A stretch of 64,000 bases of DNA from an uncultured bacterium (GTDB lineage Bacteria > Oederibacteriota > PGYV01 > Palsa-1178): NCBI GenBank assembly GCA_937889595.1, contig CALAOR010000010.1, forward strand, positions 1 to 64,000, in the 5' to 3' direction. A program made the translations under genes and the position numbers. Position 1 is the stretch's first letter. Each line of letters begins with the position of its first letter. The notes beneath the pieces are model-generated. The model did no database searches. It worked only from the letters and a program-made list of their open reading frames with translations, and was not told the DNA's origin. Positions 1,804 through 46,858 of the stretch are shown piece after piece.

Positions 1804-4800
1804 ATGACTAAAACTGCGTTTGGTATTTGTCTCGGCGCGTCTACTATAAGCGCTGTGGAATTATCCAAAAAGGGCGATGATTTTAAGGTTGAAAGGGTTA
1901 TCAGGAAAGCGCACGACGGCAACCCCAAGGCCATATTTGCAGAAGTGGTGAAAGAGCTTAAGACCGGGGACAGCCATGTGCTTGTAACGGGCAGGCGTTT
2001 CAGGGAATTTGTGAATGTGCCTTCAATTACAGAGCCCGAGGCAGTGGAAGAGGCTTTGCAGCATTTATCCGTGAAAGATAAAAAATATGACGCGGTAGTG
2101 TCGGCCGGCGGCGAGACTTTTATAGTATATAGGCTTGACCACGAACAAAAGGTGTCGGGAATCTCAACCGGGAACAAATGCGCTTCAGGCACGGGGGATT
2201 TCTTCCTCCAGCAGATAAAAAGAATGAACATAAGCATAGATGAAGCCGTGGAGAAAGCCATGCAGGGCGACCCCTACAGCGTGTCGGGCAGGTGCTCCGT
2301 ATTCTGCAAGTCCGACTGCACGCACGCATTGAATAAAGGCGTTCCCATATCAAATGTAACCGCGGGGCTTTGCGCCATGATAGGCGAGAAAATAACGGAA
2401 CTCGTCATGAAAGTGCCGCATGAAAACGTGCTGATAACCGGCGGGACGACCTTAAACAAAGCCGTGATCGCAAGCGTCAAAAAATTCATTGATAACGTGA
2501 CTGTTCCGGTTGAGGCGCCTTATTTTGAGGCGCTCGGCGCGGCAATCGCCGCATTTTCCAAGGGAAAGAAAATCACCGGACAGCTTTTCAAAGAAGGCCA
2601 TTCAGGTTTCTCCGTGCTTCTGCCGCTTAAAGACGCTGAAAACCTCGTTACTTTCAATAAGTCCGAGAGGGGCACGCTGCGCCCGAACGACAAGTGCGTA
2701 ATCGGGCTTGACGTGGGTTCTACAACCACAAAAGCCGTCCTCATGCGAGTGTCCGATGACAAAATACTCTCGGATATTTACCTCCGTACAAACGGCAATC
2801 CCATAGAAGCCTCGCGAAAGTGTTATGAAAGTATTTTAAAGGACATAGGGGACACTCCTGTTGACATCGTGAATATAGGCGTTACAGGTTCGGGCAGGCA
2901 GATTGCCGGCTTATACTCCATCACCGACGGCGTGATAAATGAGATCATTGCGCATGCTTCAGCCGCGGTGTATTTTGACCCTGAAGTGGATACGATCTTT
3001 GAAATAGGCGGGCAGGACGCCAAGTACACGCATATTACCGCGGGCGTCGCGTCCGACTATGCCATGAACGAGGCATGCTCGGCCGGAACAGGTTCTTTCC
3101 TTGAAGAAGCGGCGTTCGAATCCCTCGGTGTTGATTACAAACAGATAGCGGACATGGCCATAACGGCAAAAAGACCGCCTAATTTCAATGACCAGTGCGC
3201 GGCATTCATATCTTCCGACATAAAAAACGCCAGCCACGAAGGCATATCAAAGGAAGACATACTTGCGGGACTGGTTTATTCGATTTGTTTTAATTATGTC
3301 AACAGGGTAAAAGGGCACAGGCCTGTCGGTGAAAAGGTATTCATGCAGGGCGGGGTTTGTTATAACAAAGCCGTGCCCCTTGCCATGGCTGCAATCACCG
3401 GCAAGCAGATCATAGTCCCGCCCGACCCGGGCCTCATGGGCGCATTTGGAGTGGCCCTGGAAGTCAAAAAGAGGCTGGACTTAAACCTTCTTGAAGAAGG
3501 AAAATACGACTTAAAGCGCATGATAGCAAGGCAGATAACAAATGAAAAATCGTTTGTGTGCCTGGGTGGAAAAGAAAAATGCGACAGAAAATGCGCAATA
3601 AATATGATAAGGATAGAAGGCAAAGTATATCCTTTTGGCGGCGCTTGCAACAAGTATTACAACCAGAGATATAATATAGACGTTGATGCGGAAAAACTCG
3701 ACTATGTCGCGGTGAGGAACCGGCTGGTTTTTGAGAGATTCGCGCCCGCCATGCCCATAAATGAAAATTCTCCTGTTATCGGGATAAACCGCTCATTTAT
3801 AGTCCTGCAAATGTTCCCGTTATACTATAATTTTTTCGCGAATTTAGGGTGCAGAGTCATACTTTCAAAGGAACTCGTGGAAGACGCGTCGCACCTGCAT
3901 ACGACATCATTTTGCTACCCTGCGCAGGTATCCATAGGCATGTTTGAGGATCTGCTAAAGTATGATCCGGACTATGTATTTATGCCGCATGTTGAGGAAA
4001 TGCACGTGGCAAATACCGAAGCCAGGAAAGAATTTTCGGCTACCTGCATATTTACCCAGGGCGAGGCATTTACCATGCGGCAGATATTTAAGGGCAGGGG
4101 CCTGGATAAAAAGATACTTGCCCCGACATTGAATTTCTCAAAGGGCGTTGAAGATGAGAAAAAGTCCTTTATCGCGCTCGGGGTTCAGATAGGATTTTCG
4201 GCTGAGGCCGCAGCCGCTGCTTTTGACAGGGCCGACGCGGTGCAAAACGAGTTCTATAAGGAAAAGAAAAAGGTGGGGCGAGAGTTCCTCCAGGAACTTC
4301 ACAAGGACCCGTCAAAAATAGCCGTGGTCCTGTTGGGCGCCCCGCATCATGCTTTTAACGAGGACACGAATAAAGGTGTGCCGCGGAAACTGACTTCGCG
4401 CGGTTATGCCGTGATACCTTTTGACATGCTGCCCATAGAACACGAACCTCTGGAGTCGCCGCATGACGATTACCTGCACTGGGAAATAGGACAGAAATTA
4501 ATAAGCGCTTCCCAGATAATTAAAAAAGACAACCAGCTTTACGGGTTATATATAACCAACTTTCTGTGCGCCATAGACTCCCTGACAGTGACATATTTCA
4601 GGCGTATTATGAAAAACAAGCCGTCACTAACGCTCGAACTTGACGGGCACACGGCCGACGCGGGCATTGATACCAGGGTTGAAGCTTTCATAGATGTTGT
4701 AAAGAACTATATTGAAGTGATGAAAAAAGTGCAGGAAACAAAACACTCCGGGTTTGTGCCGGCAAAAATGTCAATAGAGAACACGGGAATGTATTTTGTG

Positions 4801-6140: not shown

Positions 6141-6319
6141 TTACTGCGAATGGTAAATGGCCTTTATGATAGGTCGTGTCCGGCACGGATGAAATTCTTC
6201 CATGGATTGCGCGCTTGTATTATAAAGGGTTTTAGTGGCGCGCAGGCCATGGAAGAATTTCATCCGCACCGGACACGATAAAGAATTTCATGGATTTATA
6301 GGGTTTTCCGACAGTCTCC
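6141..6319. repeat. Palindromic repeat element, copy A
   Basis: Two 40-base arms, 6175-6214 and 6238-6277, pair with few mismatches around a 23-base loop. The element starts with actgcgaatggtaaatggcc and ends with ttttccgacagtctc (6304-6318), both shared with the copy at 13.9 kb. The left terminal sequence (ctgtcggaaaa) is mostly missing here. It lies between the activase stop and the PAS-GGDEF start and could act as a transcript-end structure, a mobile palindrome, or both. Confidence 0.75.
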
Positions 6320-6399
6320 AAATACCATCCAAAACTCTTTTAGTTGACCAGGTTGTATTTAGTGTATATACTGGTATGAGATTTGATGACAGGAGACCT

Positions 6400-7344
6400 A
6401 TGGCTGACGACAAGAATATAAAGAATGATCCGGGGGATCTTGAAACGGATTTCTACAAAAATATCCTTGATAATCTTTATGAAGGCGTGTATTTCTGCAG
6501 CTGGGAAAGAAAGATATCTTACTGGAACAAAGCTGCGGAAAAGCTGACGGGATATAAGGCTGAAGACATTGTCGGGCAGCATTGCTGGGACAATATCCTC
6601 ATGCACACAAATAATAAGGGCGAGAATCTCTGCAAAAATGAAAATTGTCCCGCAGTCAGGGCCATGAAGGAACAGCGGCTCGTGGAAGAGGAAGTTTTTT
6701 TAAAGCATAAGGACGGTTACCGCCTTCCCGTTATCACCAGGATTTCCCCCATGAAGGACTCAACCGGCAAGGTTATCGGGGCCGTGGAGATCTTCAGTGA
6801 CAACTCAAATAAAATATCAGCGTTCATGCAGATAGAAAAACTCGAACAGCTTGCTTTTATAGACGCTTTGACAGGTGTGGGAAACAGGCGTTATACGGAG
6901 ATTAAGATCAATACCAAGCTCGAGGAAATGAACCGGTATTCGTGGGCAAACCAGTTCGGGCTGCTTTTCATCGATATAGACCATTTCAAGGAAGTAAACG
7001 ACCAATACGGTCATGACGCCGGCGACAAGGTCTTAAAAGTCGTGACCAAGACATTCATGAACAACTTAAGGGAAGAAGATTTTGTAGGAAGGTGGGGCGG
7101 CGAAGAGTTCATACTTTTAATCGCAAATGTGGAAAAAAAAGACCTGTACACGATCGCGGAGAAAATAAGGGGTTTAATTGAGCATTCACATATTCCCCTG
7201 CCGGAAAAAGAAATAACAGTTACCGTTTCTATAGGCGCGACAACGGCAAAAAGGGATGATGATATAGATTCTGTCATAAAAAGGGCGGATAGGTTAATGT
7301 ATTACAGCAAGGGTGAAGGCAGGAATAACGTTACCATTGGCTGA
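6400..7344 (+). CDS. PAS domain-containing diguanylate cyclase (GGDEF)
   Basis: The 314-residue protein starts at ATG 6400 behind AGGAG (6391). The frame is open back to 6235, but that part only reads through the palindromic element. Residues 18-140 form a PAS domain (NLYEGVYFCSWERKISYWNK ... GYKAEDIVGQHCW) with CKNENCPAVRA after it, a Cys pair often seen in this PAS subtype. Residues 150-314 form the GGDEF domain with IDIDHFKEVND and the active-site GGEEF. It should make c-di-GMP from two GTP in response to a cytosolic cue; there is no transmembrane segment. The gene lies upstream of an HD-GYP protein that could degrade the product. Confidence 0.9.
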   Translation: MADDKNIKNDPGDLETDFYKNILDNLYEGVYFCSWERKISYWNKAAEKLTGYKAEDIVGQHCWDNILMHTNNKGENLCKNENCPAVRAMKEQRLVEEEVFLKHKDGYRLPVITRISPMKDSTGKVIGAVEIFSDNSNKISAFMQIEKLEQLAFIDALTGVGNRRYTEIKINTKLEEMNRYSWANQFGLLFIDIDHFKEVNDQYGHDAGDKVLKVVTKTFMNNLREEDFVGRWGGEEFILLIANVEKKDLYTIAEKIRGLIEHSHIPLPEKEITVTVSIGATTAKRDDDIDSVIKRADRLMYYSKGEGRNNVTIG

Positions 7345-7387
7345 CCCCGATTACCAAATATTTGATTAAAATGGGGTCTTACACCAT

Positions 7388-7426
7388 CCTAAAATCGCAT
7401 ATATTGACCTCTAATGCGATTTTAGG
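7388..7426. terminator. Perfect 13-bp stem-loop between the c-di-GMP genes
   Basis: cctaaaatcgcat (7388-7400) pairs exactly with atgcgattttagg (7414-7426) across a 13-base loop. A second possible pairing, gacccc at 7345-7350 with ggggtc at 7373-7378, precedes it. No strong T-tract follows, so it may be a terminator, an operator or an RNA element. Confidence 0.5.
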
Positions 7427-7440
7427 AATTAACAAAACAC

Positions 7441-7469
7441 TTTACAAAAGGCGCTTTATTCATTATAAT
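7441..7469 (+). promoter_or_regulatory. Sigma-70-type promoter for the HD-GYP gene
   Basis: TTTACA (7441-7446), a 17-base spacer and TATAAT (7464-7469) lie about 60 bases before the TTG start. Confidence 0.6.
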
Positions 7470-7535
7470 CCATATGAAAGCGTTATTTAACCGCAGTTTC
7501 ATGAATTACCCTTTATTTATAAAAGAGGTCAATCA

Positions 7536-9392
7536 TTGCATATCAAAAAAATTAAAAAGCCCGCTAAAAAAACAGGTGCAAAGAAAAACCGCCCCGGACA
7601 TAAAACCGGTCCAAAACGGGCAAAAATCCTTTTAAACAGGAAAAATTCAAGCGAAATCTACAAAAAACTCCTGATTACATCCTCTGATGCCGTGACGATC
7701 ACTGATCTGGACGGAAATATTATGTACGCTTCCGAGCGTGCGGCGCATATTTACGGGGCAGCAGGCGCTCAGGAACTCATCGGTAAAAGCTCATTTATCT
7801 TCATTGCGCCTGAAAATAGGGAGAAATTCCTGCTCAACATAAAGCGTACATTAAAAGAGGGGTTTTTAAGCGGCGTTGAATATACGTTCTTGCAGAAAGA
7901 CGGCAGCAGGTTTTTGGGAGCAATGAACATTTCGGCAATAAAAGACGCGAAAGGCAAAGCAGTGGCATTACTCGGGTCGATCAGGGACGTGACCAGGAAC
8001 AGGCAGATGGAGGGCCGCCTGAAGAAATCCGAGGAAAATTATAAAGCTATATTTAACGGCGTGAACGACGCTATCATGATCCTGGACCCCAGGACGGGCG
8101 GCATAATAGACGCAAATAAGAAAGCGGCTGAAATGAAGGGCTGTACTTATGATGAACTAAAGGCAAAAGGACTTAAGCTTTTTATGCCTGATGCGAAAGA
8201 GGAAGAATATGAAAGGGTCCTGGATGAATACAGAAAGGCAGTGGAAGACAAAGGGTATCACGTTTTTGAGTGGCGTAATTTAAAAAAAGACGGCTGCGAG
8301 CAGTGGGTTGAAATGAGCTTAAAGAAGGACAGGATAGACGGGGAAGATTACCTGCTGGCGATCGCCAGGGACATAACCGACAGGAAAAGGACCGAGAAAG
8401 AAATAAGGAATTCGGAAGAAATGTTTCGCAGCCTGATCGATGCTTCGCCTGACGCTGTCTTTGTGGCGGACAGCGCGGGCAGGATACTTTATGCTTCTGA
8501 TAAAGCGCTGGAACTTTACGGAGTGCCGAGGATGGACATGCTCGTGGGTAAGAACGCCGCTGATTTTTCGGCAAATGATGAAAAACCGAGGGTACTTGAG
8601 GCATTCGGCAAGGTAGTCAGGGAAGGCAATGCCCACAATTTTGAGGTGGTAATTATAAGGCACAATAATGAAAAAGTCACGGGTGAGGCGAACGCAACAC
8701 TGATAAAGACGCCCGACGGCGCCCCTAAAGCGGTCATGGTTACGATCAGGGACATAACCGAAAAGAAAAAAATGGAAATAGAGTTAAAACAGAGCTACAT
8801 GGCCGTCAAGAAAGTTATGGACGGCATAATCATCGCCATGGAAAAGCTTGTAGAAAAAAAGGATACATACACGGTGGGCCACCAGCACAGGACCGCCCAG
8901 TTGGCGCGCGCCATAGCCAAAGAAATGAGGTTGTCCCCGGAGCAGATGAACTGCGTATATATTTCAGCTTTGATCCACGACATAGGAAAGATATTTGTGT
9001 CGGGATCCATATTAAATAAGGTCGGCTCCTTAACGCCGGAAGAGTACGAAATAATTAAAAAACACTCCGAGGCGGGTTATGATGTCTTAAAGTCCATTGA
9101 TTTCCCGTGGCCCATAGCGGATATAATACTCCAGCACCATGAAAGGCTTGACGGGTCGGGTTATCCATACGGGCTCACCGGAGACAAGATATACCTTGAG
9201 TCCAGGATCATCAGCGTGGCTGACGTAGTGGAAGCCATAACCTTTGCCAGGCCTTACAGGCCCGCGTGTGGGATAGACGTGGCGCTTGGGGAAATAACGG
9301 CCAACAAGGGGAAACTTTTTGATGTGGAAGTGGTCGATATCTGCGTGAACCTCATGAAGGAACAGGGGTTTAAGTTTGAGCAGAACACTTGA
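7536..9392 (+). CDS. Triple-PAS HD-GYP domain protein, putative c-di-GMP phosphodiesterase
   Basis: A 618-residue soluble protein read from TTG at 7536, with GAGG about 9 bases upstream. After a basic N-terminal tail (about 40 residues rich in Lys) there are three PAS domains at roughly 45-155, 165-290 and 295-412. Their linker ends read GSIRDVTR, AIARDITDR and TIRDITEKKK. The C-terminal HD-GYP domain (about 430-610) has HRTAQLARAIA, the metal pair in HDIGK, ILQHHERLDGSGYPYG and ISVADVVEA. Members hydrolyse c-di-GMP to pGpG or GMP. The basic tail is unusual and could bind nucleic acid or membrane; that is a guess. Confidence 0.9.
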   Translation: MHIKKIKKPAKKTGAKKNRPGHKTGPKRAKILLNRKNSSEIYKKLLITSSDAVTITDLDGNIMYASERAAHIYGAAGAQELIGKSSFIFIAPENREKFLLNIKRTLKEGFLSGVEYTFLQKDGSRFLGAMNISAIKDAKGKAVALLGSIRDVTRNRQMEGRLKKSEENYKAIFNGVNDAIMILDPRTGGIIDANKKAAEMKGCTYDELKAKGLKLFMPDAKEEEYERVLDEYRKAVEDKGYHVFEWRNLKKDGCEQWVEMSLKKDRIDGEDYLLAIARDITDRKRTEKEIRNSEEMFRSLIDASPDAVFVADSAGRILYASDKALELYGVPRMDMLVGKNAADFSANDEKPRVLEAFGKVVREGNAHNFEVVIIRHNNEKVTGEANATLIKTPDGAPKAVMVTIRDITEKKKMEIELKQSYMAVKKVMDGIIIAMEKLVEKKDTYTVGHQHRTAQLARAIAKEMRLSPEQMNCVYISALIHDIGKIFVSGSILNKVGSLTPEEYEIIKKHSEAGYDVLKSIDFPWPIADIILQHHERLDGSGYPYGLTGDKIYLESRIISVADVVEAITFARPYRPACGIDVALGEITANKGKLFDVEVVDICVNLMKEQGFKFEQNT

Positions 9393-9401
9393 TTTCAAGC
9401 T

Positions 9402-9430
9402 TTGACAAAACAGCCGTCCGCATATATAAT
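9402..9430 (+). promoter_or_regulatory. Consensus promoter giving a leaderless or near-leaderless transcript
   Basis: TTGACA (9402-9407), exactly 17 bases, then TATAAT (9425-9430): a perfect consensus. ATG of the next gene begins at 9439, only 8 bases after the -10 box, so transcription should start at or next to the start codon. No ribosome site can be seen. Confidence 0.7.
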
Positions 9431-9438
9431 ATCCCATA

Positions 9439-10470
9439 ATGAAAAAAGCCATAACAGCATTTTTAGCCATCACAGCCGTGTTATCATGTTCAAAGATGTC
9501 GCAGCCGACGACTGCGTCCGCAACCGACCCCGCGTCCGCTTCCGCTTACGCCCTGCCTACGGCTACTCCGGGCATGAAAACCTGGGTACAAGGCGAGCGT
9601 TTTTGTGATTTTACCGCGAGGGCGTTTCAAGGCATGTATTCCATAAATGACCGTTTATATGTCGTGGCCGGCAGGGGCGTAAGCAAATGCAGCGGCGACA
9701 CATGGTGGACATCGGATTGTGAAACATGGGTCACATCTTCGGCTAAGGCGGAATTTGCGCCAAGGGATTCATTTGCAGGCGCAGTGTTCAATAATAAAAT
9801 GTGGGTTATTGGGGGATCGGACAAAAATATTTATTTCAAAGACGTGTGGTCATCATCAGACGGTGTAACATGGACGGCAGCTGCCATAACATGGACAGCT
9901 GCGGCATCGGTCCCGGGTTTCAGCGAAAGGGCGGGATTAAGCGCTGCCGTGCTTAAGGATGTTTTATATATTACTGCGGGTTCAAACGGCAAAAAGGAGC
10001 TTAATGATGTATGGTCGTCAAAGGATGGAAATAGCTGGACAAGGCTGAAGGAAGATAATGATAAAGGGTTCCCGCAGAGAACGGGCCATAAGCTGCTCTC
10101 TTACGCGGGGAAACTCTGGATAATAGGCGGGAAAAACGGGGCTGAAAATTTTCTTTCCGATGTGTGGTCATCGGAAAACGGGATTGACTGGAAAATAGCC
10201 ACGCCAAATGCCGGTTTTTCCGGCAGGTCGGACTTTGCGGCCCTTACATATAAGGAACGCATGTGGGTTATGGGCGGGATGGGGGCAAAAGGCGCGCAAA
10301 ATAACGACGTGTGGTGGACGGTTAACGGTTATTACTGGGTTTCAACAACCGCCAAGGCCGATTTTGAAGCAAGGTCGGGGTTTAATGCCGCGGAATATAA
10401 AGGCAGGGTATACCTGACCGGCGGCATATCGGGCGGCAAGTTAAAGAGGGACCTGTGGGTGTCCCAGTGA
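9439..10470 (+). CDS. Kelch-like beta-propeller lipoprotein
   Basis: A 343-residue protein. The N-terminus (MKKAITAFLAITAVLSC) is a lipoprotein signal peptide with lipobox AVLSC, so it should be lipid-anchored in an outer or inner membrane. A Thr/Ser/Ala linker follows. The body has about five repeats of roughly 55 residues with kelch-type patterns: MWVIGGSDKNIYFKDVW, LYITAGSNGKKELNDVW, LWIIGGKNGAENFLSDVW, MWVMGGMGAKGAQNNDVW, VYLTGGISGGKLKRDLW. A short duplication within one repeat repeats WTAA. It overlaps the next lipoprotein gene by four bases (GTGA). No ligand can be named; a surface binding scaffold is likely. Confidence 0.8.
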   Translation: MKKAITAFLAITAVLSCSKMSQPTTASATDPASASAYALPTATPGMKTWVQGERFCDFTARAFQGMYSINDRLYVVAGRGVSKCSGDTWWTSDCETWVTSSAKAEFAPRDSFAGAVFNNKMWVIGGSDKNIYFKDVWSSSDGVTWTAAAITWTAAASVPGFSERAGLSAAVLKDVLYITAGSNGKKELNDVWSSKDGNSWTRLKEDNDKGFPQRTGHKLLSYAGKLWIIGGKNGAENFLSDVWSSENGIDWKIATPNAGFSGRSDFAALTYKERMWVMGGMGAKGAQNNDVWWTVNGYYWVSTTAKADFEARSGFNAAEYKGRVYLTGGISGGKLKRDLWVSQ

Positions 10471-10943
10471 AAAACAAATTACAAATTACTAATTACAAAT
10501 TACTGATTAAAACAATTGCCGCAGTAACCCTGTTTTGTTTGCTCTCCGGATGCGGGGTTATATATTATCACAATCCAGAAAAGGCCAGGGAAACCGCAAG
10601 TGAGTTTTTGAGCTTTTTATATACTGAAAAAAATATTGACAAGGCTTATGCCATGACCAATAAATTTTACAAGGATAATTACGGGCGGCAGGACCTTGTA
10701 AAAGCATCCTCGTATTTCCTTTCTAAATTCGGCAAATTTGAAGGCACAAGGGCAAAGGAGTACTTTACTGAAGGCGGCTCAAAGGAAATAATCGTATTTT
10801 ATACGGCTGTGAGTGAAGGCGGCATGACGTACCAGAAAGTGATCTTAAATGACGAGGGAAAAGACGGATACAAGGTGTCGGGGCTGGTAATATCGGACAC
10901 GCCGTTCATAGGATACAGACTTATAAAGCCTTATAAGGATTAA
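10467..10943 (+). CDS. Small lipoprotein of unknown function
   Basis: A 158-residue protein from GTG at 10467, overlapping the kelch lipoprotein stop as GTGA, which implies translational coupling. The signal peptide ends in a lipobox (LLSGC, about residue 29). The mature part is a small alpha/beta domain (EFLSFLYTEKNIDKAYAM ... IIVFYTAV) resembling NTF2-like or DUF4019-type lipoproteins; this is a weak resemblance. The first codons lie on a tandem aaattac/taattac repeat (10484-10504), which makes the N-terminal KLQITNYKLL stretch low-complexity at DNA level. It probably acts at the membrane with the upstream propeller. Confidence 0.65.
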   Translation: MKNKLQITNYKLLIKTIAAVTLFCLLSGCGVIYYHNPEKARETASEFLSFLYTEKNIDKAYAMTNKFYKDNYGRQDLVKASSYFLSKFGKFEGTRAKEYFTEGGSKEIIVFYTAVSEGGMTYQKVILNDEGKDGYKVSGLVISDTPFIGYRLIKPYKD

Positions 10944-10944
10944 T

Positions 10945-11018
10945 TGATACTGCCGGGAAGTCCTTATGATAGGTCAAGAAAATCAGCCATAATAAAGAGG
11001 GTTTTCAGACAGTATCTG
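10945..11018. repeat. Short copy C of the palindromic repeat family
   Basis: The left end gatactgccgggaa (10945-10958) and right end ttttcagacagtatc (11003-11017) are inverted versions of the same terminal sequence. The centre keeps ccttatgataggtc, as in copies A and B, but the long arms are gone. It lies between the lipoprotein stop and the hemerythrin start. Confidence 0.65.
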
Positions 11019-11056
11019 ATAACCTGCGGGAACTATATAAATAACAGGAGAACAAT

Positions 11057-11464
11057 ATGTATACGGAATGGACGCCTGAAATGTCGGTCGGTATCGGTGA
11101 TATAGATGTGCAGCATAGGAAAATGATCCGCAAGATAAATGAAATATCCGAGGCTGTTGACGCTTCAAAATCAAAGGAAGAAATAACCGAAGCTATCAAG
11201 TTTTTTGAAGTCTATTCGGAAGAGCACTTTAATACCGAAGAAGGGTACATGCAGGTTTACAGGTATCCCGATTACATCGGCCATCAGAAAGAACATAAAC
11301 AGATCCTGGAGGACATGGCTCAAGTCAGGGAAAAATTCAATCGTGGCGAGATAACCGAAAAAGAAGTTTACGAAGGAAGCCGTAAAGTGGCCGAATGGTT
11401 TGTGGTGCACATGAAGACAACGGACAGCAGGATGGCGGTTTTTTTGAGGGGGAAGGTTAAGTAG
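11057..11464 (+). CDS. Bacteriohemerythrin
   Basis: A 135-residue four-helix protein that binds O2 (or senses it, or NO) at a non-haem di-iron site in the cytoplasm. All ligand motifs are visible: W-x-PEMSVGIGDIDVQH (first His), EEHFNTEEGYM (His and Glu), YPDYIGHQKEHKQIL (two His), and WFVVHMKTTDSRM (His and Asp). The length matches single-domain members. AGGAG lies 7 bases before ATG. In an anaerobe it most likely buffers or senses oxygen. It stands alone behind a repeat element. Confidence 0.93.
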   Translation: MYTEWTPEMSVGIGDIDVQHRKMIRKINEISEAVDASKSKEEITEAIKFFEVYSEEHFNTEEGYMQVYRYPDYIGHQKEHKQILEDMAQVREKFNRGEITEKEVYEGSRKVAEWFVVHMKTTDSRMAVFLRGKVK

Positions 11465-11560
11465 ATTGCGGATTTTGGATTGCGGATTGGCTTAGCGCGC
11501 AGTGCCGGGCGGGCAGTACGACAGCAGACTTTAAATCGTAAAAAGAAAAGAGGCGCATCA

Positions 11561-11878
11561 ATGAGCTTAAAATTCGGAACGTATGATTTTGAAGGGCCCT
11601 ATCCGTCAACGATGCAGATGTACGAAAAGCCAGGCGTTTATATAGTGTTATGCAAGGACTACAAGATTGACGCCAGGTATTACCTGCTCGACGTTCAGGA
11701 ATCGGATAAGGTCAGGACCCATGCTACTACCAGTCCGAATACGGTCTGCTGGACAAAAAACTGCCACGGCGTAGGCACTATAGCTGTGGCTGTTTGTTAC
11801 ATGGAAAAAGCTACAAAAGAAGAACGGGCAAAAGCGGCAAAATATTTGCGCGACCTCTACGATGTGCCGTGCAAGTGA
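11561..11878 (+). CDS. GIY-YIG-like small protein
   Basis: A 105-residue protein starting at ATG 11561; the frame is open upstream to 11480 but that part has no ribosome site. KPGVYIVLC followed 20 residues later by LLDVQESDKVRTHA matches the GIY-YIG fold layout, in which those positions read GVYxIY and xVGEsxdVkxRl. The expected second half is present as CWTKNCHGVGTIAVAV. Several nuclease residues differ: the YIG Gly and catalytic Arg are not in standard positions, and H is found where R is expected. It may therefore be a non-catalytic relative. The stop overlaps the next gene's longest possible start. The GIY-YIG placement is by resemblance. Confidence 0.55.
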   Translation: MSLKFGTYDFEGPYPSTMQMYEKPGVYIVLCKDYKIDARYYLLDVQESDKVRTHATTSPNTVCWTKNCHGVGTIAVAVCYMEKATKEERAKAAKYLRDLYDVPCK

Positions 11879-13865
11879 CATTCCCCGGTTAATGCCGCGC
11901 CTGGACCGCAGTTTATGCATGTTTTTACAGCAAATCGCTGTATCCGTATTTTTTTCAGTGTATATTTTAACATGCAGGGCCCTGTATTATTATGACCATT
12001 TAAAATACGCCGCATACCTAAAATCCCCCAATATCTGGTTTGAAGCCGCAGGTCTGGGCGCGGTCATCGCGTTTGTCCTTCATATGACTGCGGGCCGGTT
12101 GAACCGGGAAAATATGCCCGGGACCAGGCTTCAAATCGCCGGCGCGGCCGTGTTATTTGCCATGATTTCCGCGTCTTTCTTTCTTTTGAAATTTGAATTT
12201 TCGTATGACCGCTTGTTTATTTTGTGCCTGAATAATACGTTTGCCGCCGTTATAATATTTATGTCAAGCGGCATAACCCGGGACAGGCTTAAACATGCGC
12301 CGGGCCAAAAAACGGATAAAAAGGGCCCGGACCGGGCCGTTGTTGTTATTTTCCTAGCGGTGATCACAACCGTAATATTTCAAAAAACATTTTCTTTTCA
12401 CCAGGCCTTTTATACCCAGGCCAAAGATGCCGGGATATATTTTAACGCCATGTGGAATATCATAAATTCCCACAGTCAATTTACATGCGCGGACGGGTAT
12501 CTGGACCATAGGGGCGTTCATTTCCAGCCGATGATGTATTTGTTTGCGCCTTTAATGCTGTTAAAAGACGACGGAGCGATATTTTTCTTTTTGCAGGCGT
12601 TTTTTCTCGGACTTTCCGGTTTTTATATGTATCTGCTGTCCGTGAAACTTCTTAAGAACAAACACGCCGCATTTCTTATAATGCTGGCTTATTGTATAAG
12701 CCCCTATTTTTTCAGGATAACCGATTATAATTTTAAATTCTCGTCCATTTACGCCGCAGCCTTCCTGGCCATGTTGTACCACGCCGAGAGAGGAGAGTTC
12801 ATTCCCTCGGTAGCTGCCGTTATTGCCGCCATATGTGTAAAGGAGGAGGCTGCGCTATATACAGGGTTTATTCTGGTGTTCCTGGGTTTAAGAAAAAATG
12901 ACACGCGGTATTACCTATTGTCTGCCGCTATTTTTATTTATTTTGCCGTAGTGACTTTCCTTGTGATACCGGCATATAACCCCGGTAACTCGTATTTTTC
13001 AGGGTGGATTACAGACTCAATAATGAGCATCAAGCCGTTTTTTAACACTGCAATGCTGAAACAGCTTGTTTTTTTCCTTGCGGGGGTGCTGTTCCTGGCG
13101 CTGTATCCTTCCAGCGCGTTTGTTTTAATCCTTCTCCCGCCGCTTATAGTCCAGACCGCGGCTTACACGCCGGTTTTTCTTATTTTTTTCTTTTACCATT
13201 CGGCCATGGTCACCCCGGCATTGTTCGCAACTGCCATGTACAATTATGAAAAGATCAGCCGTGTTGTAAAGGAAAAGAACCCGGGAACACGGGTATTTGC
13301 CGCGTCATTTCTCATACTTATACTGCAAACCCAGTATCATATTGCGTATGCTCCGCTGTCATCAGTGACAGGCGCCGCGCTGGCCTGCGTGATGTTCCTG
13401 TCGTTCCCGTACATTTATTTACGCGTAAAAACACCAGTACTGCTGAAACAGTCTTTTATCGCTTTAAGCGTAATAATAATTTTTTTGGCCGGATATGCAG
13501 CTTTTTATAATGCCAGGCTGGATTTTATCCCGCCTGCGGACAGGGAAGCTATCCGGGAAGCCATGAAACTGCTGCCTGAAGACAAGAATATACCGGTCAT
13601 AGCGAATACAAACATAGTGCCGCATATATCAGACAGAAAATACGTGGATTTTATAGAAAGTGAGATCGCGTTCAGGGCGGTGACGATCAGCAAGTCCAGG
13701 GTCTTTTACCTGCTTGAGAATTTAAAGTCAAATACCTATAGCGGGATGAATTCGGCAATGCGGGACAGGGAATTTGCTGAAACCGCGGTAAAGAACGGGT
13801 TCAAAGGCGATCTGATATTCAGTAAGGACCTGGTCTGGCTCTATAAATTTGTAAAGGCAAATTGA
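11862..13865 (+). CDS. DUF2079 polytopic membrane protein
   Basis: Up to 667 residues. ATG 11862 overlaps the previous stop by 17 bases; ATG 11892 or 11919 are alternatives and none has a clear ribosome site. About 12 hydrophobic segments are visible. The segment from residue 180 has the DUF2079 hallmarks: an aromatic-rich FHQAFYTQAKDAGIYFNAMW, then DHRGVHFQPMMYLFAPL. The family resembles GT-C glycosyltransferases such as those that use polyprenyl-phosphate sugars, with a large C-terminal soluble part (here 555-667). Enzymatic activity is unproven for the family. Confidence 0.75.
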   Translation: MCRASDIPRLMPRLDRSLCMFLQQIAVSVFFSVYILTCRALYYYDHLKYAAYLKSPNIWFEAAGLGAVIAFVLHMTAGRLNRENMPGTRLQIAGAAVLFAMISASFFLLKFEFSYDRLFILCLNNTFAAVIIFMSSGITRDRLKHAPGQKTDKKGPDRAVVVIFLAVITTVIFQKTFSFHQAFYTQAKDAGIYFNAMWNIINSHSQFTCADGYLDHRGVHFQPMMYLFAPLMLLKDDGAIFFFLQAFFLGLSGFYMYLLSVKLLKNKHAAFLIMLAYCISPYFFRITDYNFKFSSIYAAAFLAMLYHAERGEFIPSVAAVIAAICVKEEAALYTGFILVFLGLRKNDTRYYLLSAAIFIYFAVVTFLVIPAYNPGNSYFSGWITDSIMSIKPFFNTAMLKQLVFFLAGVLFLALYPSSAFVLILLPPLIVQTAAYTPVFLIFFFYHSAMVTPALFATAMYNYEKISRVVKEKNPGTRVFAASFLILILQTQYHIAYAPLSSVTGAALACVMFLSFPYIYLRVKTPVLLKQSFIALSVIIIFLAGYAAFYNARLDFIPPADREAIREAMKLLPEDKNIPVIANTNIVPHISDRKYVDFIESEIAFRAVTISKSRVFYLLENLKSNTYSGMNSAMRDREFAETAVKNGFKGDLIFSKDLVWLYKFVKAN

Positions 13866-13900
13866 AATCCGGGATTTAAACCCGCAAAAACCCGCATTAG

Positions 13901-14111
13901 ATGCTGCCGGAAAAGCATGTCATGTACCTTAAGCTACTGCGAATGGTACATGGCCTTTATGATAAGTCGTGTGTGGTACGAACTTTAATTTTTCTATGGA
14001 TTTTGCGCTTATATTATATAGGGGAATCGCGCAAAGGCCATAGAAAAATTAAAGTTCGTACCGCACACGAAAGGAAACACGTCATATTAATGATGGTTTT
14101 CCGACAGTCTC
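13901..14111. repeat. Palindromic repeat element, copy B (complete)
   Basis: Terminal inverted repeats ctgccggaaaagc (13904-13916) and ttttccgacagtctc (14097-14111) bound a 210-base element. Inside are a small hairpin, catgtacc (13921-13928) with ggtacatg (13945-13952), and a long one with 41-base arms (13968-14008 and about 14028-14069). Arm sequence differs from copy A at many positions, yet the two arms still match each other. It fills the start of the 438-base gap before the hydrolase. Confidence 0.78.
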
Positions 14112-16309: not shown

Positions 16310-16343
16310 ATTACCGGATGTACAAAAACCGGGGAGCTGATAA

Positions 16344-16730
16344 ATGCACATAATGGTTGTTGATGATGAAGATGATATCGTCAGGCTGACAAGCACAATT
16401 TTTGAGTTATATAATCATAAGGTCACAAGGACTAATTCCGGAAATGAATGCATGGAAAAATTAAATGCGGGGATCATTCCCGATGTCATACTGCTTGACC
16501 TGATGATGCCGGGATTATCCGGGTATGAAACATGCAGGATGATAAAAGCGGACCCAAGGTTCAATAAGATACCTGTAATAATATTTTCCGCAAAAACAGG
16601 CAAGGACGATATCGCTGAAGCGTATAAGCTCGGGATTGACGGTTATATTACAAAACCGTTTGACCCGCTTGACATGGTTAAGCAGATTGAAAAGAGCGTA
16701 AAACCGGCAGCCGGGCATGGATCTGTATGA
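16344..16730 (+). CDS. CheY-like single-domain response regulator (copy 1)
   Basis: A 128-residue receiver domain without an output domain. The acidic pocket (VVDDEDD), the phospho-acceptor Asp in VILLDLMMPG (about 54), Ser in IIFSAK and Lys-Pro in ITKPFDP are all present, so it should be phosphorylated by a sensor kinase encoded elsewhere. ATG at 16344 follows GGGGAGCTG. It is about 70 percent identical by eye to the protein at 17.3 kb, so the pair arose by duplication; repeats fill the gap between them. Confidence 0.92.
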   Translation: MHIMVVDDEDDIVRLTSTIFELYNHKVTRTNSGNECMEKLNAGIIPDVILLDLMMPGLSGYETCRMIKADPRFNKIPVIIFSAKTGKDDIAEAYKLGIDGYITKPFDPLDMVKQIEKSVKPAAGHGSV

Positions 16731-16800
16731 CATGAAAGTATCTGACCTGAAAAAGCCGGTTTTGATATCGCTGGAAAAATTTTATCAGTGCCGGACCCTA

Positions 16801-16907
16801 CTTATCATTAAGGCCATGTACCATTCGCAGTAGCTCAGGTACATGGCATGCCCGTGTACCATTCGCAGTAGCTTAAGGTACATGGCATGCTTTTCCGACA
16901 ATATCTA
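16801..16907. repeat. Palindromic repeat family, copy D1 (reverse orientation, hairpin unit duplicated)
   Basis: Read on the minus strand, this is the left half of copy B: terminal ttgtcggaaaagc (16890-16902), then catgccatgtacc ... ggtaca hairpins. The hairpin unit occurs twice, at 16813-16850 and 16853-16890. The long arms of the element are absent. Confidence 0.68.
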
Positions 16908-17182
16908 AATAGTTTTCTAAACCCATATTTGACATATTTTTGAGACTCCTTTTCAACGCTTACAATATTCGCGCCCAACAACTTTAACACCCATGTACCA
17001 CTCGCTATTGCTCGGGTGCATGGCATGTTTTCCGACAGTATCTAAATAGCTTTCTAAACCCATATTTGACATATTTTTGAGACTCCTTTTTAACGCTTAC
17101 AATATTCGCACCCAACAACTTTGACACCCATGTACCACTCGCTATTGCTCGGGTGCATGGCATGTTTTCCGACAGTATCTAA
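16891..17182. repeat. 137-bp tandem repeat, two copies plus partial third end
   Basis: ttttccgaca recurs at 16891, 17028 and 17165, exactly 137 bases apart. The units in between are nearly identical, with a handful of substitutions. Each carries tctaaacccatatttgaca, a central AT-rich part, and a hairpin (ccatgtacc with ggtgcatgg, one G-T pair). The family's terminal sequence closes each unit, so the elements have inserted or expanded head-to-tail. This occupies most of the 582-base gap between the two regulators. Confidence 0.78.
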
Positions 17183-17275: not shown

Positions 17276-17312
17276 AGGCTCATTAGACATACATAAAATA
17301 AGGAGCCTATAT

Positions 17313-17699
17313 ATGCACATAATGGTTGTTGATGATGAAGATGACATCATCAGGCTGACAAGCGCGGTTCTTGAAATGAATAATCATAAGACAACCAGCG
17401 CCTGCTCGGGAAATGAATGCCTGGAAAAATTAAACGCGGGCATTGTGCCTGATATTATACTTCTTGACCTGATGATGCCCGGAATAAGCGGGTATGAAAC
17501 GTGCATGAAGATAAAAACGGACCAAAGGTTCAAAAGGATACCTGTAATAATCTTTTCCGCAAAATCAGGCAGGGATGATATTGAGTACGCATACAGGCTC
17601 GGGATTAACGGTTATATTACGAAACCTTTTGACCCGCAGGACCTGCTTAAGCAGGTTGAAAGGTATGCAAAAGCATTAACCGGGCATGTACCTGACTAA
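17313..17699 (+). CDS. CheY-like single-domain response regulator (copy 2)
   Basis: A 128-residue receiver domain paralogous to the one at 16.3 kb. It has VVDDEDD, the phospho-acceptor Asp in IILLDLMMPG, IIFSAKSG and ITKPFDP, so all switch residues are intact. Differences cluster in helix 1 (residues 18-32) and the last helix, the surfaces that choose kinase and target, which suggests that the two copies now serve different partners. AAGGAG lies 7 bases before ATG. Confidence 0.92.
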   Translation: MHIMVVDDEDDIIRLTSAVLEMNNHKTTSACSGNECLEKLNAGIVPDIILLDLMMPGISGYETCMKIKTDQRFKRIPVIIFSAKSGRDDIEYAYRLGINGYITKPFDPQDLLKQVERYAKALTGHVPD

Positions 17700-30689: not shown

Positions 30690-30709
30690 ATAGCGAGGAA
30701 GAACGGTCT

Positions 30710-30942
30710 ATGTAGGCGCAACCTTGACTTCGGCTGAGCTCAGTCGAAGCCTAGGTTGCGGATTTTGTTCTAACGCGGCTTAAATCAAATGATACTGTCG
30801 GAAAACCCCTAAAAACCATCGTTGTGGGTCGAATAATATTCGACCCCTACAAATATCTGCCTGTATTTGTAGGGGCAGCATATCATGCTGCCCGCCCTTG
30901 CAGGCTTTTCCTACTCAGCCGAAGTCAAGGTTGCGCCTACAT
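30710..30942. repeat. Nested intergenic palindromes (TGTAG...CTACA type)
   Basis: A perfect 29-base inverted repeat (30710-30738 and 30914-30942) encloses further palindromes: gggtcgaataat/attcgaccc (30826-30847), cctacaaata/tatttgtagg (about 30846-30875) and gggcagcat/atgctgccc (30874-30895). One end of the GATACTGTCGGAAAA family lies inside at 30790-30804. The outer arms begin and end in tgtag/ctaca, as does the hairpin at 41.4 kb. The rest of the 30690-31051 gap holds nothing else recognisable. Confidence 0.75.
30790..30804 (-). repeat. Solitary end of the palindromic repeat family
   Basis: gatactgtcggaaaa at 30790-30804 is the cleanest copy of the terminal sequence of the elements at 6-17 kb. 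No partner end was found within 300 bases, so this is a remnant or a solo end. Confidence 0.55.
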
Positions 30943-31051
30943 AAACAAATTCCAAATTAAATTCCAGATCATCAAAACTACCTTTGAATTCAACCAGACT
31001 AAATGTTATAATATCACCAATTTGAAACACTAAACTCCGAGGTGGCTGTTC

Positions 31052-33519: not shown

Positions 33520-36456
33520 ATGCTTAAAAGGGCGATTATATCCATTACAATCTTCTTTACCTCATATATTGTAGTATCTGCTGCAGGACTAATGCCTACG
33601 CCAACTTTTACACCTACTCCTGGAGGGATAGGAAGTCTTTATAATGAATTAACAACGGATGGCAATATAGAAACGATAATATCAAATGGTAATGATTTGT
33701 ATTTAGGCGGGGATTTTAATTGGATTGGACCACGTACCGGTTTGGGGGTGACTATAGATCCTGCAAACGGACTTATACTTCCCGGATTTCCTATGTTTGC
33801 AGCCGCAGTTCAAAATATTTCAGTCGGAGTTCATTGCGTGGTTTCGGATGGAACCGGCGGATGGTTCGTGGGTGGTTGTTATGATTACGTAGCCGGCATA
33901 TTGTCAGGCAATCTTGTGCATATTTATGCAAATGGTTCGCTGGATCCCAATTTTAGACTCGACGCTCTTTATAATTCAAGCGAAGCTGAAATTACCTCGA
34001 TTATTTACGACGGAAGCAACATATACTATTCTTATCGTCAAATCAATGGGACGTACGGAGGAATAAAAAAAATAAATTCTATAACTGGTGCTGACATTTC
34101 GGCTTTTGCTCCAAATATTGGCCCAAATGTGTATTCTCTTGCGTATGACGGAAGTTATATTTATGCAGGCGGATATTTTTCCAGCGCGGGGGGAATAACA
34201 AGAAATAATATTGCTCGATTTGATGCTACGACTGGCGGTATAGATTCAACTTTCAATCCAAATGTAAATTCAGCTGTATATTCTATGTTCCTTTCTGCGG
34301 GGAATTTATTTATTGGAGGTTACTTCACGCGAGTAAGTGGTATTGCATGTAACAGGTTGGCAAAAATAAATACATCAACAGGGGCTCTGGATACGATGTT
34401 TATAACAAATGTTGACAATAATGTTGATACTATTTTTTTTGATGGCGCATCTTTTTTATATCTTGGAGGGTGGTTTACCACTGTTAATGGTACGGCCAGA
34501 AATCATGCGGCAAAAGTCAATGTAATAGACGGTGCGCTTGATATGATGTTTAACCCGGATGTAGATAATAACGTTGAAGCGTTTGCTTCTGATGGCACAA
34601 ATATTTTTATAGGCGGATATTTTTCTGCTGTAGGTGGACAAGCTGTTTCTAGAGTGGCTAAAGTTGATTCGACCTACGGGAACATAGATGTATTATTTAA
34701 TTTTAAGCCATCTGGTGTAATTTTGGCGCTTGCATGCGATGGGACGAATTTGTTTGCTGGCGGCGGATTTGCCGGAGCAAACGGGTATTGGAAAAATAAT
34801 GTCGCAAAAATTAATGCACTAACGGGCTTAGTTGATCCGACGTTTGGTATCAGTTTTGAAAATGGTTCAAAAGTTAAAGCCATGACATGCGATGGTACAA
34901 ACTTGTATCTGGGAGGAGATTTCACTACGCTAAATAATCAACCTCGAAATAGTACGGCCAAAGTGGATGCAAGCACAGGGGCGCTGGATATGCTTTACGA
35001 TCCGAATAATTCTATGATTGTATTTTCCATTGAGCATGACAGTACAAGCGTGTATTTGGGCGGGATGTTTACCGAGTTTGCCGGTCATCCTGTTTCCAAT
35101 GTGGCAAAAGTAGATAAAATCACAGGGGCTCTGGACCTGGCGTTTAATCCATGTCCAAATTCTGTAGTGTATGATATTTGTCGTGTAAATCAGGATTTAT
35201 ATTTATGCGGATCGTTTGATAAAATTGGCGGACAATCTTTGAATTTTTTGGCGAAAGTAAATAGCATTACAGGCGTAGTAGACCCTATTTTTCGGCCGAC
35301 ACCAAATGCTTGGGTGGGAGATATGGAATTTGATGGTACCGACCTGTTTGCAGTAGGAACCTTTACTCTCATCGGTGGACTTGAGCGGCATTATATCGCT
35401 AAAATCAATACGCTAACTGGCGATTGTGTGTCCGGATTCAATGCGATGGCTAATGGAACTGGTTTGGGATGTCTTGAATATGGAAGATCTAATGTATATT
35501 TTGGCGGTAATCTTAGTTTTTTAAATTACTTAACTCGTTATAATATTGGGGCATCAATTGAAACGAACGGAACGCCGGATTTGAATTTTATGCCTCAATT
35601 TGATAGTGGCGTAAAGAAAATAATCCTTGCAAATTCTGATACAGTGCTTCATGTGACCGGATCTTTCGGGGCCGTCGGTGGACTGCCGGCAGTAGGTTAT
35701 GCTGCAATATATCTAGGGCCAGTACCCAGCCCTACCGGTACAGGTTCGTCGTCACCAACATGTTCAGCTACGTTTACTATAACAGGAACGTATACACAAT
35801 CATTTACTCAGACCCCCACTTTCACCATAACACCTACAAAATCTTTTACTCAAATATATACCGACAGCGAAACGCCTACAATAACAGAAACGTATTCGAT
35901 TACTGAAACGCATACTATATCTCCGACTTTTACCGATTCGCCTACGATTACAGAAACAAATACTATAACTGAAACGCATACTATCTCTCCGCCCCCGACA
36001 AATACACGCACATGGACGAATACATGTGCTGCGACCTTAAGTTTTACCCTGACGCTTAATCTAACTTCTACCCTGACACCCACACTGACGTTTACGCCGA
36101 CAATAACATATACAGATACAATAACCCCGACTTTTATTATAACCCCTGTTTCTTTTCCGACAAACACGCCGCTGCCTTATGCCCTCATAGAACAGGTGCT
36201 TACATATCCGAACCCGACAAAAGACACATTGAATGTCATTTTCAGGGATGGAATGGGTGCGGATGCTGCTGAGATTATGGTCTATACACTCGATTTCAGG
36301 CTTATAAGAAAGTTGCGTATAAATACGAATATTCAAAATCAGTATTCAATTGACGTCTCAAAATTATCAAATGGTACTTACATTTTAAAAACCAGCCTGC
36401 TTAAAGACAGCAAGGAAATTTTTAAAAACGTTCAGCCGATTATTGTATTAAGATAA
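33520..36456 (+). CDS. Large secreted DUF5122-type beta-propeller protein with Thr-rich linker and C-terminal sorting-like domain
   Basis: A 978-residue protein. Residues 1-22 are a signal peptide (SITIFFTSYIVVSAAG), followed by a TPTFTPTPG linker. From about 45 to 740 there are some fifteen repeats of about 45 residues with the pattern YxGGxF...N(I/V)A(K/R)(I/V)...TGxxDxxFNP, which fits the delta-60/DUF5122 propeller repeat. Residues 745-885 are Thr/Pro/Ser-rich (TETHTISPT). Residues 890-978 are a FlgD-like or type IX-like domain (LTYPNPTKDTLNVIF ... LSNGTYILK). Codons are more AT-rich than in both flanks, hinting at transfer. It is probably surface-exposed; the ligand is unknown. Confidence 0.8.
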   Translation: MLKRAIISITIFFTSYIVVSAAGLMPTPTFTPTPGGIGSLYNELTTDGNIETIISNGNDLYLGGDFNWIGPRTGLGVTIDPANGLILPGFPMFAAAVQNISVGVHCVVSDGTGGWFVGGCYDYVAGILSGNLVHIYANGSLDPNFRLDALYNSSEAEITSIIYDGSNIYYSYRQINGTYGGIKKINSITGADISAFAPNIGPNVYSLAYDGSYIYAGGYFSSAGGITRNNIARFDATTGGIDSTFNPNVNSAVYSMFLSAGNLFIGGYFTRVSGIACNRLAKINTSTGALDTMFITNVDNNVDTIFFDGASFLYLGGWFTTVNGTARNHAAKVNVIDGALDMMFNPDVDNNVEAFASDGTNIFIGGYFSAVGGQAVSRVAKVDSTYGNIDVLFNFKPSGVILALACDGTNLFAGGGFAGANGYWKNNVAKINALTGLVDPTFGISFENGSKVKAMTCDGTNLYLGGDFTTLNNQPRNSTAKVDASTGALDMLYDPNNSMIVFSIEHDSTSVYLGGMFTEFAGHPVSNVAKVDKITGALDLAFNPCPNSVVYDICRVNQDLYLCGSFDKIGGQSLNFLAKVNSITGVVDPIFRPTPNAWVGDMEFDGTDLFAVGTFTLIGGLERHYIAKINTLTGDCVSGFNAMANGTGLGCLEYGRSNVYFGGNLSFLNYLTRYNIGASIETNGTPDLNFMPQFDSGVKKIILANSDTVLHVTGSFGAVGGLPAVGYAAIYLGPVPSPTGTGSSSPTCSATFTITGTYTQSFTQTPTFTITPTKSFTQIYTDSETPTITETYSITETHTISPTFTDSPTITETNTITETHTISPPPTNTRTWTNTCAATLSFTLTLNLTSTLTPTLTFTPTITYTDTITPTFIITPVSFPTNTPLPYALIEQVLTYPNPTKDTLNVIFRDGMGADAAEIMVYTLDFRLIRKLRINTNIQNQYSIDVSKLSNGTYILKTSLLKDSKEIFKNVQPIIVLR

Positions 36457-36671
36457 ATTTGTGATTATATGTTATGTTTGGTTATGTTTGGGGTCACCCA
36501 TTTAAGTACTTGTCAATAATAAATATACGTATTACGTAAGCGGTTTCCAAACCATCTGTTAATCCATTATTCAGTCGTCCATTTTTTTATCTCTTGAAAC
36601 CCGGAATAATCCGGTTTTTCGTTTTTGCTAAAGCTTCAACGGACATGGCAGTCACCCATCAACAGCGGCCC

Positions 36672-36727
36672 GCCTGCATGATAATTTTGGGCCCGGATAT
36701 CCGCTAATCAGACCCTCGAAGCCGCGT
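36672..36727 (+). repeat. 56-bp direct repeat, left copy
   Basis: gcctgcatgataattttg and gctaatcagaccctc recur in the same order and spacing at 44868-44923, with a few substitutions. The pair brackets the C25 peptidase and GH5 genes. The rest of the 36457-36852 gap holds the promoter below and no gene. Confidence 0.75.
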
Positions 36728-44837: not shown

Positions 44838-44867
44838 CACCTTTTTCAAAGCGCAGGACTTAAGCCT

Positions 44868-44923
44868 GCCTGCATGATAATTTTGGACACGGATGTCCGC
44901 TAATCAGACCCTCAAAGCCGCGT
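44868..44923 (+). repeat. 56-bp direct repeat, right copy
   Basis: Partner of 36672-36727, in the same orientation, lying just after the GH5 terminator. Confidence 0.75.
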
Positions 44924-45033: not shown

Positions 45034-45074
45034 CCTCCGACTAATATAATATATGATATTATATTAGTCGGAGG
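45034..45074. repeat. Perfect 18-bp stem-loop
   Basis: cctccgactaatataata (45034-45051) pairs fully with tattatattagtcggagg (45057-45074). It abuts the left BRO-region repeat and could be an insertion end or a terminator. Confidence 0.6.
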
Positions 45075-45240
45075 TCTTGACCTGATACATGATGATTGTT
45101 GTATGTAAACAAAGTGGGTTTGTCAGGTAGCAGTTCAAGACGTGGCCCCGGATTGCGGACAACAAAGGGTGAGGAACCGGCGGGTTGGACAAGAATAATT
45201 CTAAAAGCTCAATCCGAGTTCTGACCCCAGCCACACCAGC
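45074..45240 (+). repeat. BRO-region repeat, left copy
   Basis: Starts gtcttgacctgatacatgat and ends ctgaccccagcca. Compared with the copy at 47.1 kb it lacks a central insert. Within it gtcttga and tcaagac can pair. With the stem-loop above it fills most of the 44783-45341 gap. Confidence 0.72.
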
Positions 45241-45256
45241 CACATAAAAAATCAAA

Positions 45257-45285
45257 TTGACGAGTGTTTTAAATGGATGTAGTAT
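45257..45285 (+). promoter_or_regulatory. Candidate promoter for the BRO-N gene
   Basis: TTGACG (45257-45262), 17 bases, TAGTAT (45280-45285), 57 bases before ATG. Confidence 0.42.
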
Positions 45286-45341
45286 GTAATTAAATTGAGG
45301 GAACCAAATAATCCGTACAAGGCGGGAGAAGAGGGCGCACT

Positions 45342-46178: not shown

Positions 46179-46290
46179 TGTTTGATGAAGTCTGTAACCG
46201 GATACTGTCTTGCACATAAGAAAAAAGATACTGAAAGGTTATACACAAATAAAGAAAAAAGCTGTGAGCAGGATGAAGCAAAAGGACAAT

Positions 46291-46479
46291 ATGTATATAT
46301 GGGATAATATGAAGCAGGAACACAGGGATTTGGTCCTGAAAAAAGTATACTGCGGCGGGTGCTGCCGGGCGGTGGAGATTGCGGATTATAGGTTTGAATC
46401 ATCAGGCACAAGCCTGGTGCTTAGAGGCAAATGCAAAAAATGCGGTCATGAAGCGGCGCGGGTGCTGGAGGGTTGTTGA
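46291..46479 (+). CDS. Small zinc-ribbon protein
   Basis: A 62-residue protein starting at ATG 46291, chosen for AAAGGA 6 bases upstream; the frame is open back to 46210. CGGCC and, 23 residues later, KCKKCGHEA give a four-Cys ribbon. No family is recognised. It lies 112 bases after the BRO-N gene in the same orientation and may belong to the same mobile unit. Confidence 0.5.
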   Translation: MYIWDNMKQEHRDLVLKKVYCGGCCRAVEIADYRFESSGTSLVLRGKCKKCGHEAARVLEGC

Positions 46480-46640
46480 AATAAATAGGATATCGCAAAT
46501 ATAGGGTCTGGCCCTAAATTTGCGTTATCAAAGGCGTAGCTAGCACGCCGGCTAGTCCGCCGAAGCGAACTTGCGAAGGCGGGAAGCTTTAGCGAAGGAG
46601 TGTCTCGCACGCCGGAGCTTTAGCGAAGGCGTGTTCCACG
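46480..46640. repeat. agctttagcgaagg-containing dispersed repeat
   Basis: After an imperfect palindrome (tagggtctggcccta, 46502-46516), the segment 46546-46635 has three variants of gaagctttagcgaaggcg. Positions 46611-46631 are identical to 1514-1534. No gene is seen. Confidence 0.6.
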
Positions 46641-46759
46641 ATGCAGGAACGAAATGCGGCGAGGGATTTCATTTTTTGGGGAATCGGAGTAGAATGGAAA
46701 GACGATAAACAATGGGACTCACAACATGAAAAGCGGGGCGGGAACTTCGGGTGATTGAC

Positions 46760-46858
46760 GGCAATTAAAACTCCCCTACAGGGAACTATAATTGCCGCTG
46801 AACAGCGGGTTGGATAAGAACACTTCTAAACGCTCAATTCGAGTTCTGACCCCAGCCA
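46760..46858. repeat. BRO-region repeat, middle (partial) copy
   Basis: From 46774 to 46858 it matches the insert and right half of the 47.1 kb copy (gggaactataattgccgctg, ending ctgaccccagcca). cggcaatta (46759-46767) can pair with taattgccg (46790-46798). Confidence 0.68.

Follow-up and report, generated by a model that had tools for sequence, protein, structure and literature searches.

Two palindromic elements, copies A and B, in a 64,000-nucleotide stretch of contig CALAOR010000010.1 from an uncultured bacterium (the whole stretch is called the window below) are members of a new family of miniature inverted-repeat transposable elements (MITEs), which are non-autonomous transposons. Two properties make the family of interest: the arms of its long palindrome change in concert, which is best explained by copying of one arm from the other, and its copies are strongly biased in orientation with respect to transcription. 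An earlier note on this DNA had described copies A and B as diverged palindromes with pairing arms, a T-G pair in copy B and common flanks, and all of this was borne out when the sequence was checked (arms of 41 nt, 90% paired, in copy A and of 42 nt, 93% paired, in copy B). The claim that the two copies share their ends holds for copy B, which has both terminal repeats, and in part for copy A, which lacks its left terminal repeat and one half of the small stem-loop beside it.

A new family of mobile elements

The 3.42-Mb genome holds about a hundred copies of this dispersed family. Collection by terminal sequence gave 220 matches at ≤2 mismatches, compared with 29 for a reversed control pattern, and a BLAST search of the genome with copy B gave 113 matches. 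The window has 13 terminal-sequence matches at ≤3 mismatches where 1.9 are expected. Among named genomes, the paired-repeat pattern was found in two metagenome assemblies of candidate division FCPU426, G001 (PMTB01) and G003 (PLPI01), and the host bacterium is close to this division. The window's own genome (G000) and G001 belong to one genus; G003 represents a sister genus, in which the element has the same design and different arm sequences. Lone terminal-repeat matches in other genomes (G010, G013, G015, G018, G034, G045) were not accepted as family members, being unpaired, mostly within open reading frames (ORFs) and near chance in number.

Terminal inverted repeats of ~15 bp, GAKACTGTCGGAAAA, stand on both ends of 77 elements in the three genomes. 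Most elements are 130-285 nt long, with no conserved open frame and no transposase gene inside. An intact type-1 element consists, in order, of the terminal repeat, a spacer, a long palindrome of ~104 nt, a second spacer, one or two optional small stem-loops (CATGTACC-N16-GGTACATG) and the other terminal repeat. Type-2 elements combine the same terminal repeats with an interior of GTAG-REP-like palindromes (L016, L023, L025, L030 and the element at window position 30791). Two copies, at window positions 10946-11016 and at L011, have lost the palindrome and kept the remainder. A 36-nt stem-loop unit (GCCATGAACC...GGTTCATGGC) of the same kind as the type-1 small stem-loop occupies the same place near the palindrome apex in seven copies (L029, L035, L042, L044, L047, L114, L121); it was either inserted once and then spread, or entered the loop repeatedly.

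The suggestion of a palindromic mobile element was confirmed by target duplications and empty sites in addition to the terminal repeats. Exact 5-bp flank matches were found for 19 of 49 elements in G000, 3 of 8 in G001 and 8 of 19 in G003, as against 1.2, 0.6 and 0.4 expected from shuffled pairings, and other duplication lengths gave no signal in the same three genomes. The related genomes also provide empty sites, as the L012 and L008 loci are continuous without the element in both G001 and G003. The family therefore combines the hallmarks of a MITE, namely terminal inverted repeats, a target duplication of fixed length, insertion polymorphism and small size without a transposase gene. The prospect that it would match an annotated element was not realised among Rfam covariance models, which gave no window matches at gathering thresholds. 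A literature search on the terminal sequence returned unrelated papers only, and no viral contig with paired terminal repeats at the element's spacing was found in IMG/VR.

Several other identities were considered and rejected. GTAG-type REP sequences and their RAYT transposases (PMC3733652) resemble the family in the GTAG-headed palindromes of type-2 interiors and in the small stem-loops nested in type-1 elements. However, a RAYT-mobilised REP is a single GTAG-tagged stem-loop of 20-40 bp with a flanked RAYT gene, whereas the present element is larger, at 170-250 nt, has terminal repeats and target duplications, and RAYT loci were found without these units. A RAYT origin of the small stem-loops is likewise unsupported, since the Y1 transposase genes of the genome are not flanked by them. 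A retron or attC recombination site, judged by anatomy alone, does not fit either: the conserved attC core motifs are absent, and the target duplications argue for DDE transposition. An in-frame coding element, as in Rickettsia, was dismissed because an open frame is present on the R strand of just 9 of 30 copies and on the F strand of 2 of 30. A candidate autonomous copy at C20:43415-46356 has ordinary genes only between its repeats.

Placement and orientation relative to genes

The canonical F orientation of copy A is the minus strand, so a plus-strand transcript bears the R strand. Elements lie mostly just 3' of genes, and many start -2 to +3 nt from the upstream stop codon, where the terminal GA can complete TGA. 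Genes were called as long ORFs; one double count was removed, and copies overlapped solely by spurious ORFs were included. In gaps between co-directional genes, the transcript contains the R strand in 25 of 26 cases for G000 and G001 together and in 11 of 12 for G003 (pooled 36 of 38, p=5e-9; two genera, three genomes). Type-2 elements share this lean, about 8 to 2. Gaps between convergent or divergent genes are few and show no orientation preference. For 25 of 30 copies, the strand that is transcribed has a more stable fold than the complementary strand. No internal promoter or intrinsic terminator in copy A or B stood clearly above chance.

The orientation bias, separately from any covariation, points to a transcript-level effect. 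In enterobacteria, ERIC/IRU elements are palindromic, intergenic and MITE-like, ~127 bp long, and are co-transcribed with their neighbours, with an effect on upstream mRNA that depends on orientation (PMC2229807). By analogy with this orientation dependence, we infer that the bias reflects selection on read-through transcripts, which could favour the hairpin or act against the other orientation. The present family is likewise palindromic, intergenic and MITE-like, but its sequence is different, and ERIC terminal repeats are given as 7 bp long with TA termini (PMC2229807), where ours are ~15 bp and accompanied by 5-bp duplications. Concerted arm divergence and the 36:2 orientation bias were measured for the present family only, with no such comparison for ERIC. 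The Correia/NEMIS elements of Neisseria are also MITEs with terminal repeats, and their transcript forms a hairpin for which RNase III processing has been proposed (PMC2229807); their terminal repeats are 24 bp with TA termini, and their sequence is unrelated to the present family. Our elements, with their placement and orientation bias, may have an ERIC/NEMIS-like effect on mRNA stability or processing.

A possible but doubtful alternative is that no later selection is involved and the bias is set at insertion, for example if the elements target the 3' ends of genes, or terminator hairpins, in a fixed direction. The many starts close to stop codons and the equal strength of the bias in two genera are in its favour. 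However, the two terminal repeats are almost symmetric, no preference is seen in the small number of convergent and divergent gaps, and AT-rich duplications at stop codons fit the survival of harmless insertions.

Concerted change of the arms

Across the outer 29 pairs of 41 extracted palindromes, a set that includes three unrelated hairpins, we counted 1134 Watson-Crick pairs, 32 G.T, 8 A.C and 15 other combinations. An alignment of 17 complete elements has 97.8% of its stem cells paired and two-sided changes at 16 of 35 pairs. Its 64 two-sided cells compare with 15 in shuffles and ≤9 with slid partners, so the covariation first noticed between copies A and B extends to the genome-wide set. 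When copies were located by the apex alone, with arm pairing not required, full arms were present in 39 of 46. Along the 27 short edges of a minimum spanning tree of the copies there were 18 two-sided and 22 one-sided changes; by our calculation from the tree counts, independent arms would give about one two-sided change.

Six of the two-sided changes are strand-swap transversions between near-identical copies: A-T to T-A in L032/L033 (the sole pair that differs), L033/L051 and L047/L049, and C-G to G-C in L033/L002, L010/L108 and L026/L049. Such swaps cannot pass through a G.U intermediate, and arm-to-arm copying therefore explains them better. Read on the transcribed R strand, 12 one-sided mismatches are A.C and 4 are G.U; because this is no wobble excess, arm-to-arm copying is again preferred over stepwise compensation in an RNA. 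Template switching between the arms thus fits the two-sided changes better than stepwise RNA compensation does. In template-switch hairpins, replication copies one arm from the other, giving multi-base compensatory changes and perfect stems, as reported for RNA genes (PMC8794818). The mechanism proposed here is the same, whereas the setting is a dispersed bacterial transposon family with many parallel copies.

It is unlikely that the transcribed hairpin is functional and that its pairing is kept by stepwise compensatory substitutions under selection for a structured RNA. The two-sided changes at 16 of 35 pairs, the orientation with transcription and the stabler fold of the transcribed strand would all be expected of such an RNA, but the strand swaps and the direction of the transcribed-strand mismatches are wrong for wobble intermediates, and Rfam gave no match at gathering thresholds. 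Of the earlier proposal of selection or copying that preserves a hairpin, copying is thus upheld, and selection on an RNA is not demonstrated by the covariation itself; in this family, covariation alone does not prove a selected RNA. The counter-possibility that the arms would not covary beyond gene conversion is correct in part, as the arms do covary, probably through a conversion-like process. It is very unlikely that the arms pair merely because the copies are young, with differences due to recombination among a few ancestral subfamilies: several subfamilies do have arm blocks in common (GATGAAATT, GAACTTTAATT, AGGTCAAATT) and there are chimeric copies such as L022, but private two-sided single-pair changes (L032, L044, L047, L051) require a new event in both arms, and terminal repeats have decayed in many copies whose arms remain paired.

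We consider it likely that three processes act jointly, with the MITEs moved in trans, their arms kept by template switching and their orientation kept by an effect on the transcript. An IS1182/IS5-like DDE transposase would move, or would have moved, the elements. Through template switching in the hairpin, replication would now and then use one arm as the template for the other, so that a mutation in a single arm would be either copied to the other arm or erased, leaving the arms complementary. Copies would then be kept mainly where the same strand enters mRNA; in an intergenic position the transcribed R-strand hairpin may do no harm or may be of use, for instance by acting in RNA processing or stability like ERIC or NEMIS, and the reverse orientation would harm expression. 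The clean loss of the palindrome at window positions 10946-11016 and in L011, the latter with its TACAT duplication retained, supports this account.

The parent transposase is probably IS1182/IS5-like. The same repeat core occurs with unrelated interiors in Methanolobus, Methanosarcinaceae, Clostridiales, Lachnospiraceae, Planctomycetota, Deltaproteobacteria and others. About one chance match would be expected there by our estimate, and the core is therefore the signature of a widespread transposase class. In a genome outside FCPU426, an insertion sequence (IS; L262) with terminal repeats GGGTCTGTCTGAAAA / GGGAGTGTCGAAAAA and a 5-bp duplication, ACTTG, encodes a DUF772 + DDE_Tnp_1 transposase that resembles the IS1182 and IS5 families below NCBIfam cut-offs; the same genome has MITEs with GGGTCTGTCGGAAAA and the duplication ACAAT. 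A comparable case is RUP of Streptococcus pneumoniae, a MITE thought to be mobilised in trans by IS630-Spn1, which has similar terminal repeats (PMC2229807), although RUP belongs to the IS630 class with a TA target and the class suspected here is IS1182/IS5-like with a 5-bp duplication. An IS701/DDE_5 parent was rejected, as the DDE_5 gene is absent from the six genomes searched.

Several observations weigh against this joint account. Searches for DDE_Tnp_1 and DDE_5, which did not cover other transposase families exhaustively, gave no intact parent with the exact terminal repeat in G000, G001 or G003; the parent may have been lost or may be missing from the assembly. The one IS1182-like IS of G000 (DDE_Tnp_1) has a terminal repeat, GAGTCTGTCTCAAAA, that is related to the family's but distinct from it, and its duplication is apparently 4 bp long. 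The one-sided mismatches lean to G.T on the untranscribed F strand (12 G.T to 4 A.C, p=0.08; 7 to 4 without two hot positions). The orientation calls rest on simple ORF calling. Finally, essentially every copy retains a 2x2 mismatch adjoining the apex (CC opposite AT), while the pairs around it change two-sidedly. Blind arm copying should erase it, and therefore something selects for or protects the mismatch. Tentatively, and with rather low confidence, the transcribed-strand hairpin with this apex could have been recruited as a module for mRNA 3'-end or intercistronic processing, in use at dozens of genes of the phylum. Its sequence would then drift freely because template switching restores the match between the arms, and selection would act on shape and apex only.

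Separately, an IS1182-like element was seen within the loop of a GAGAGGGGGCAAGCCCCCTCTC palindrome (L165, approx. 729-2366), with an apparent CAAG duplication; G001 has this palindrome in abundance. The sister genus has remnants of terminal repeats in the tips of RHS-like genes adjoining IS1182-like transposase genes (L166/L185 and L167/L186).

Copies and other features of the window

The other sites given in the earlier note proved to be real and could be specified further (Table 1). The end near 10945 belongs to a deletion derivative, and the partial copies at 16801-17182 are a reversed truncated copy followed by a tandem duplication, with the final terminal repeats at 17028-17042 and 17165-17179. 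The end at 30790 has the same terminal repeat and belongs to a sister element with a different interior, enclosed by a 33-nt inverted repeat (30706-30738 / 30914-30946). No intact target duplication was found in the flanks of copy B.

Table 1. Elements of the family and their parts in the window
Feature	Position	Strand	Description
Copy A	6142..6318	-	type-1 MITE, 5' end truncated
Copy A long palindrome (L001)	arms 6174-6214 / 6238-6278	-	conserved apex between arms
Copy A terminal inverted repeat	6304..6318	-	GAGACTGTCGGAAAA
Deletion derivative	10946..11016	+	71 nt; both terminal repeats and both spacers present, long palindrome gone
Copy B	13900..14111	-	complete type-1 MITE, 212 nt; terminal repeats 13900-13914 and 14097-14111
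Copy B small REP-like stem-loop	13921..13952	.	CATGTACC-N16-GGTACATG; between terminal repeat and long palindrome
Copy B long palindrome (L002)	13967..14070	-	arms 13967-14008 / 14029-14070; 2x2 mismatch adjoins apex
Truncated type-1 copy, opposite orientation	16767..16905	+	one-arm remnant, two small stem-loops, terminal repeat 16891-16905
Tandem duplication of 137-nt unit	16891..17179	.	unit of terminal repeat, flank and small stem-loop
Type-2 element	30791..30912	+	left terminal repeat 30791-30805; GTAG-REP-like palindromes inside; right end decayed

The tandem stem-loop array is bracketed by a pair of response-regulator genes (16321-16620 and 17290-17589; 80% identity over 300 nt), probably a local duplication. 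A 60-nt repeat, 92% identical, occurs at 36668-36727 and 44864-44923, and L295 has a very similar sequence (about 3100-3170) directly downstream of its IS110-like transposase gene; by this resemblance the repeats may mark where IS110-family insertions end. Stretches of 55-81 nt that recur at 45074-47362 with 89-93% identity (families D17 and D19) are apparently another non-coding repeat family. The segment 48001-52000 has a GC content of 0.30, compared with about 0.46 elsewhere, and is a possible acquired island. Long runs that code for Pro/Thr-rich repeats of large proteins (35868-36147, 39286-40529, 43343-44395) and a 303-nt repeat array (60793-63728) probably belong to surface proteins.

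Covariation is commonly taken to prove that an RNA is under selection, and the present family is a caution for covariation tests. Its dozens of parallel copies are naturally suited to the measurement of arm-copying in bacteria, and the 36:2 orientation bias makes a transcript-level effect of MITEs in an uncultured phylum directly testable.

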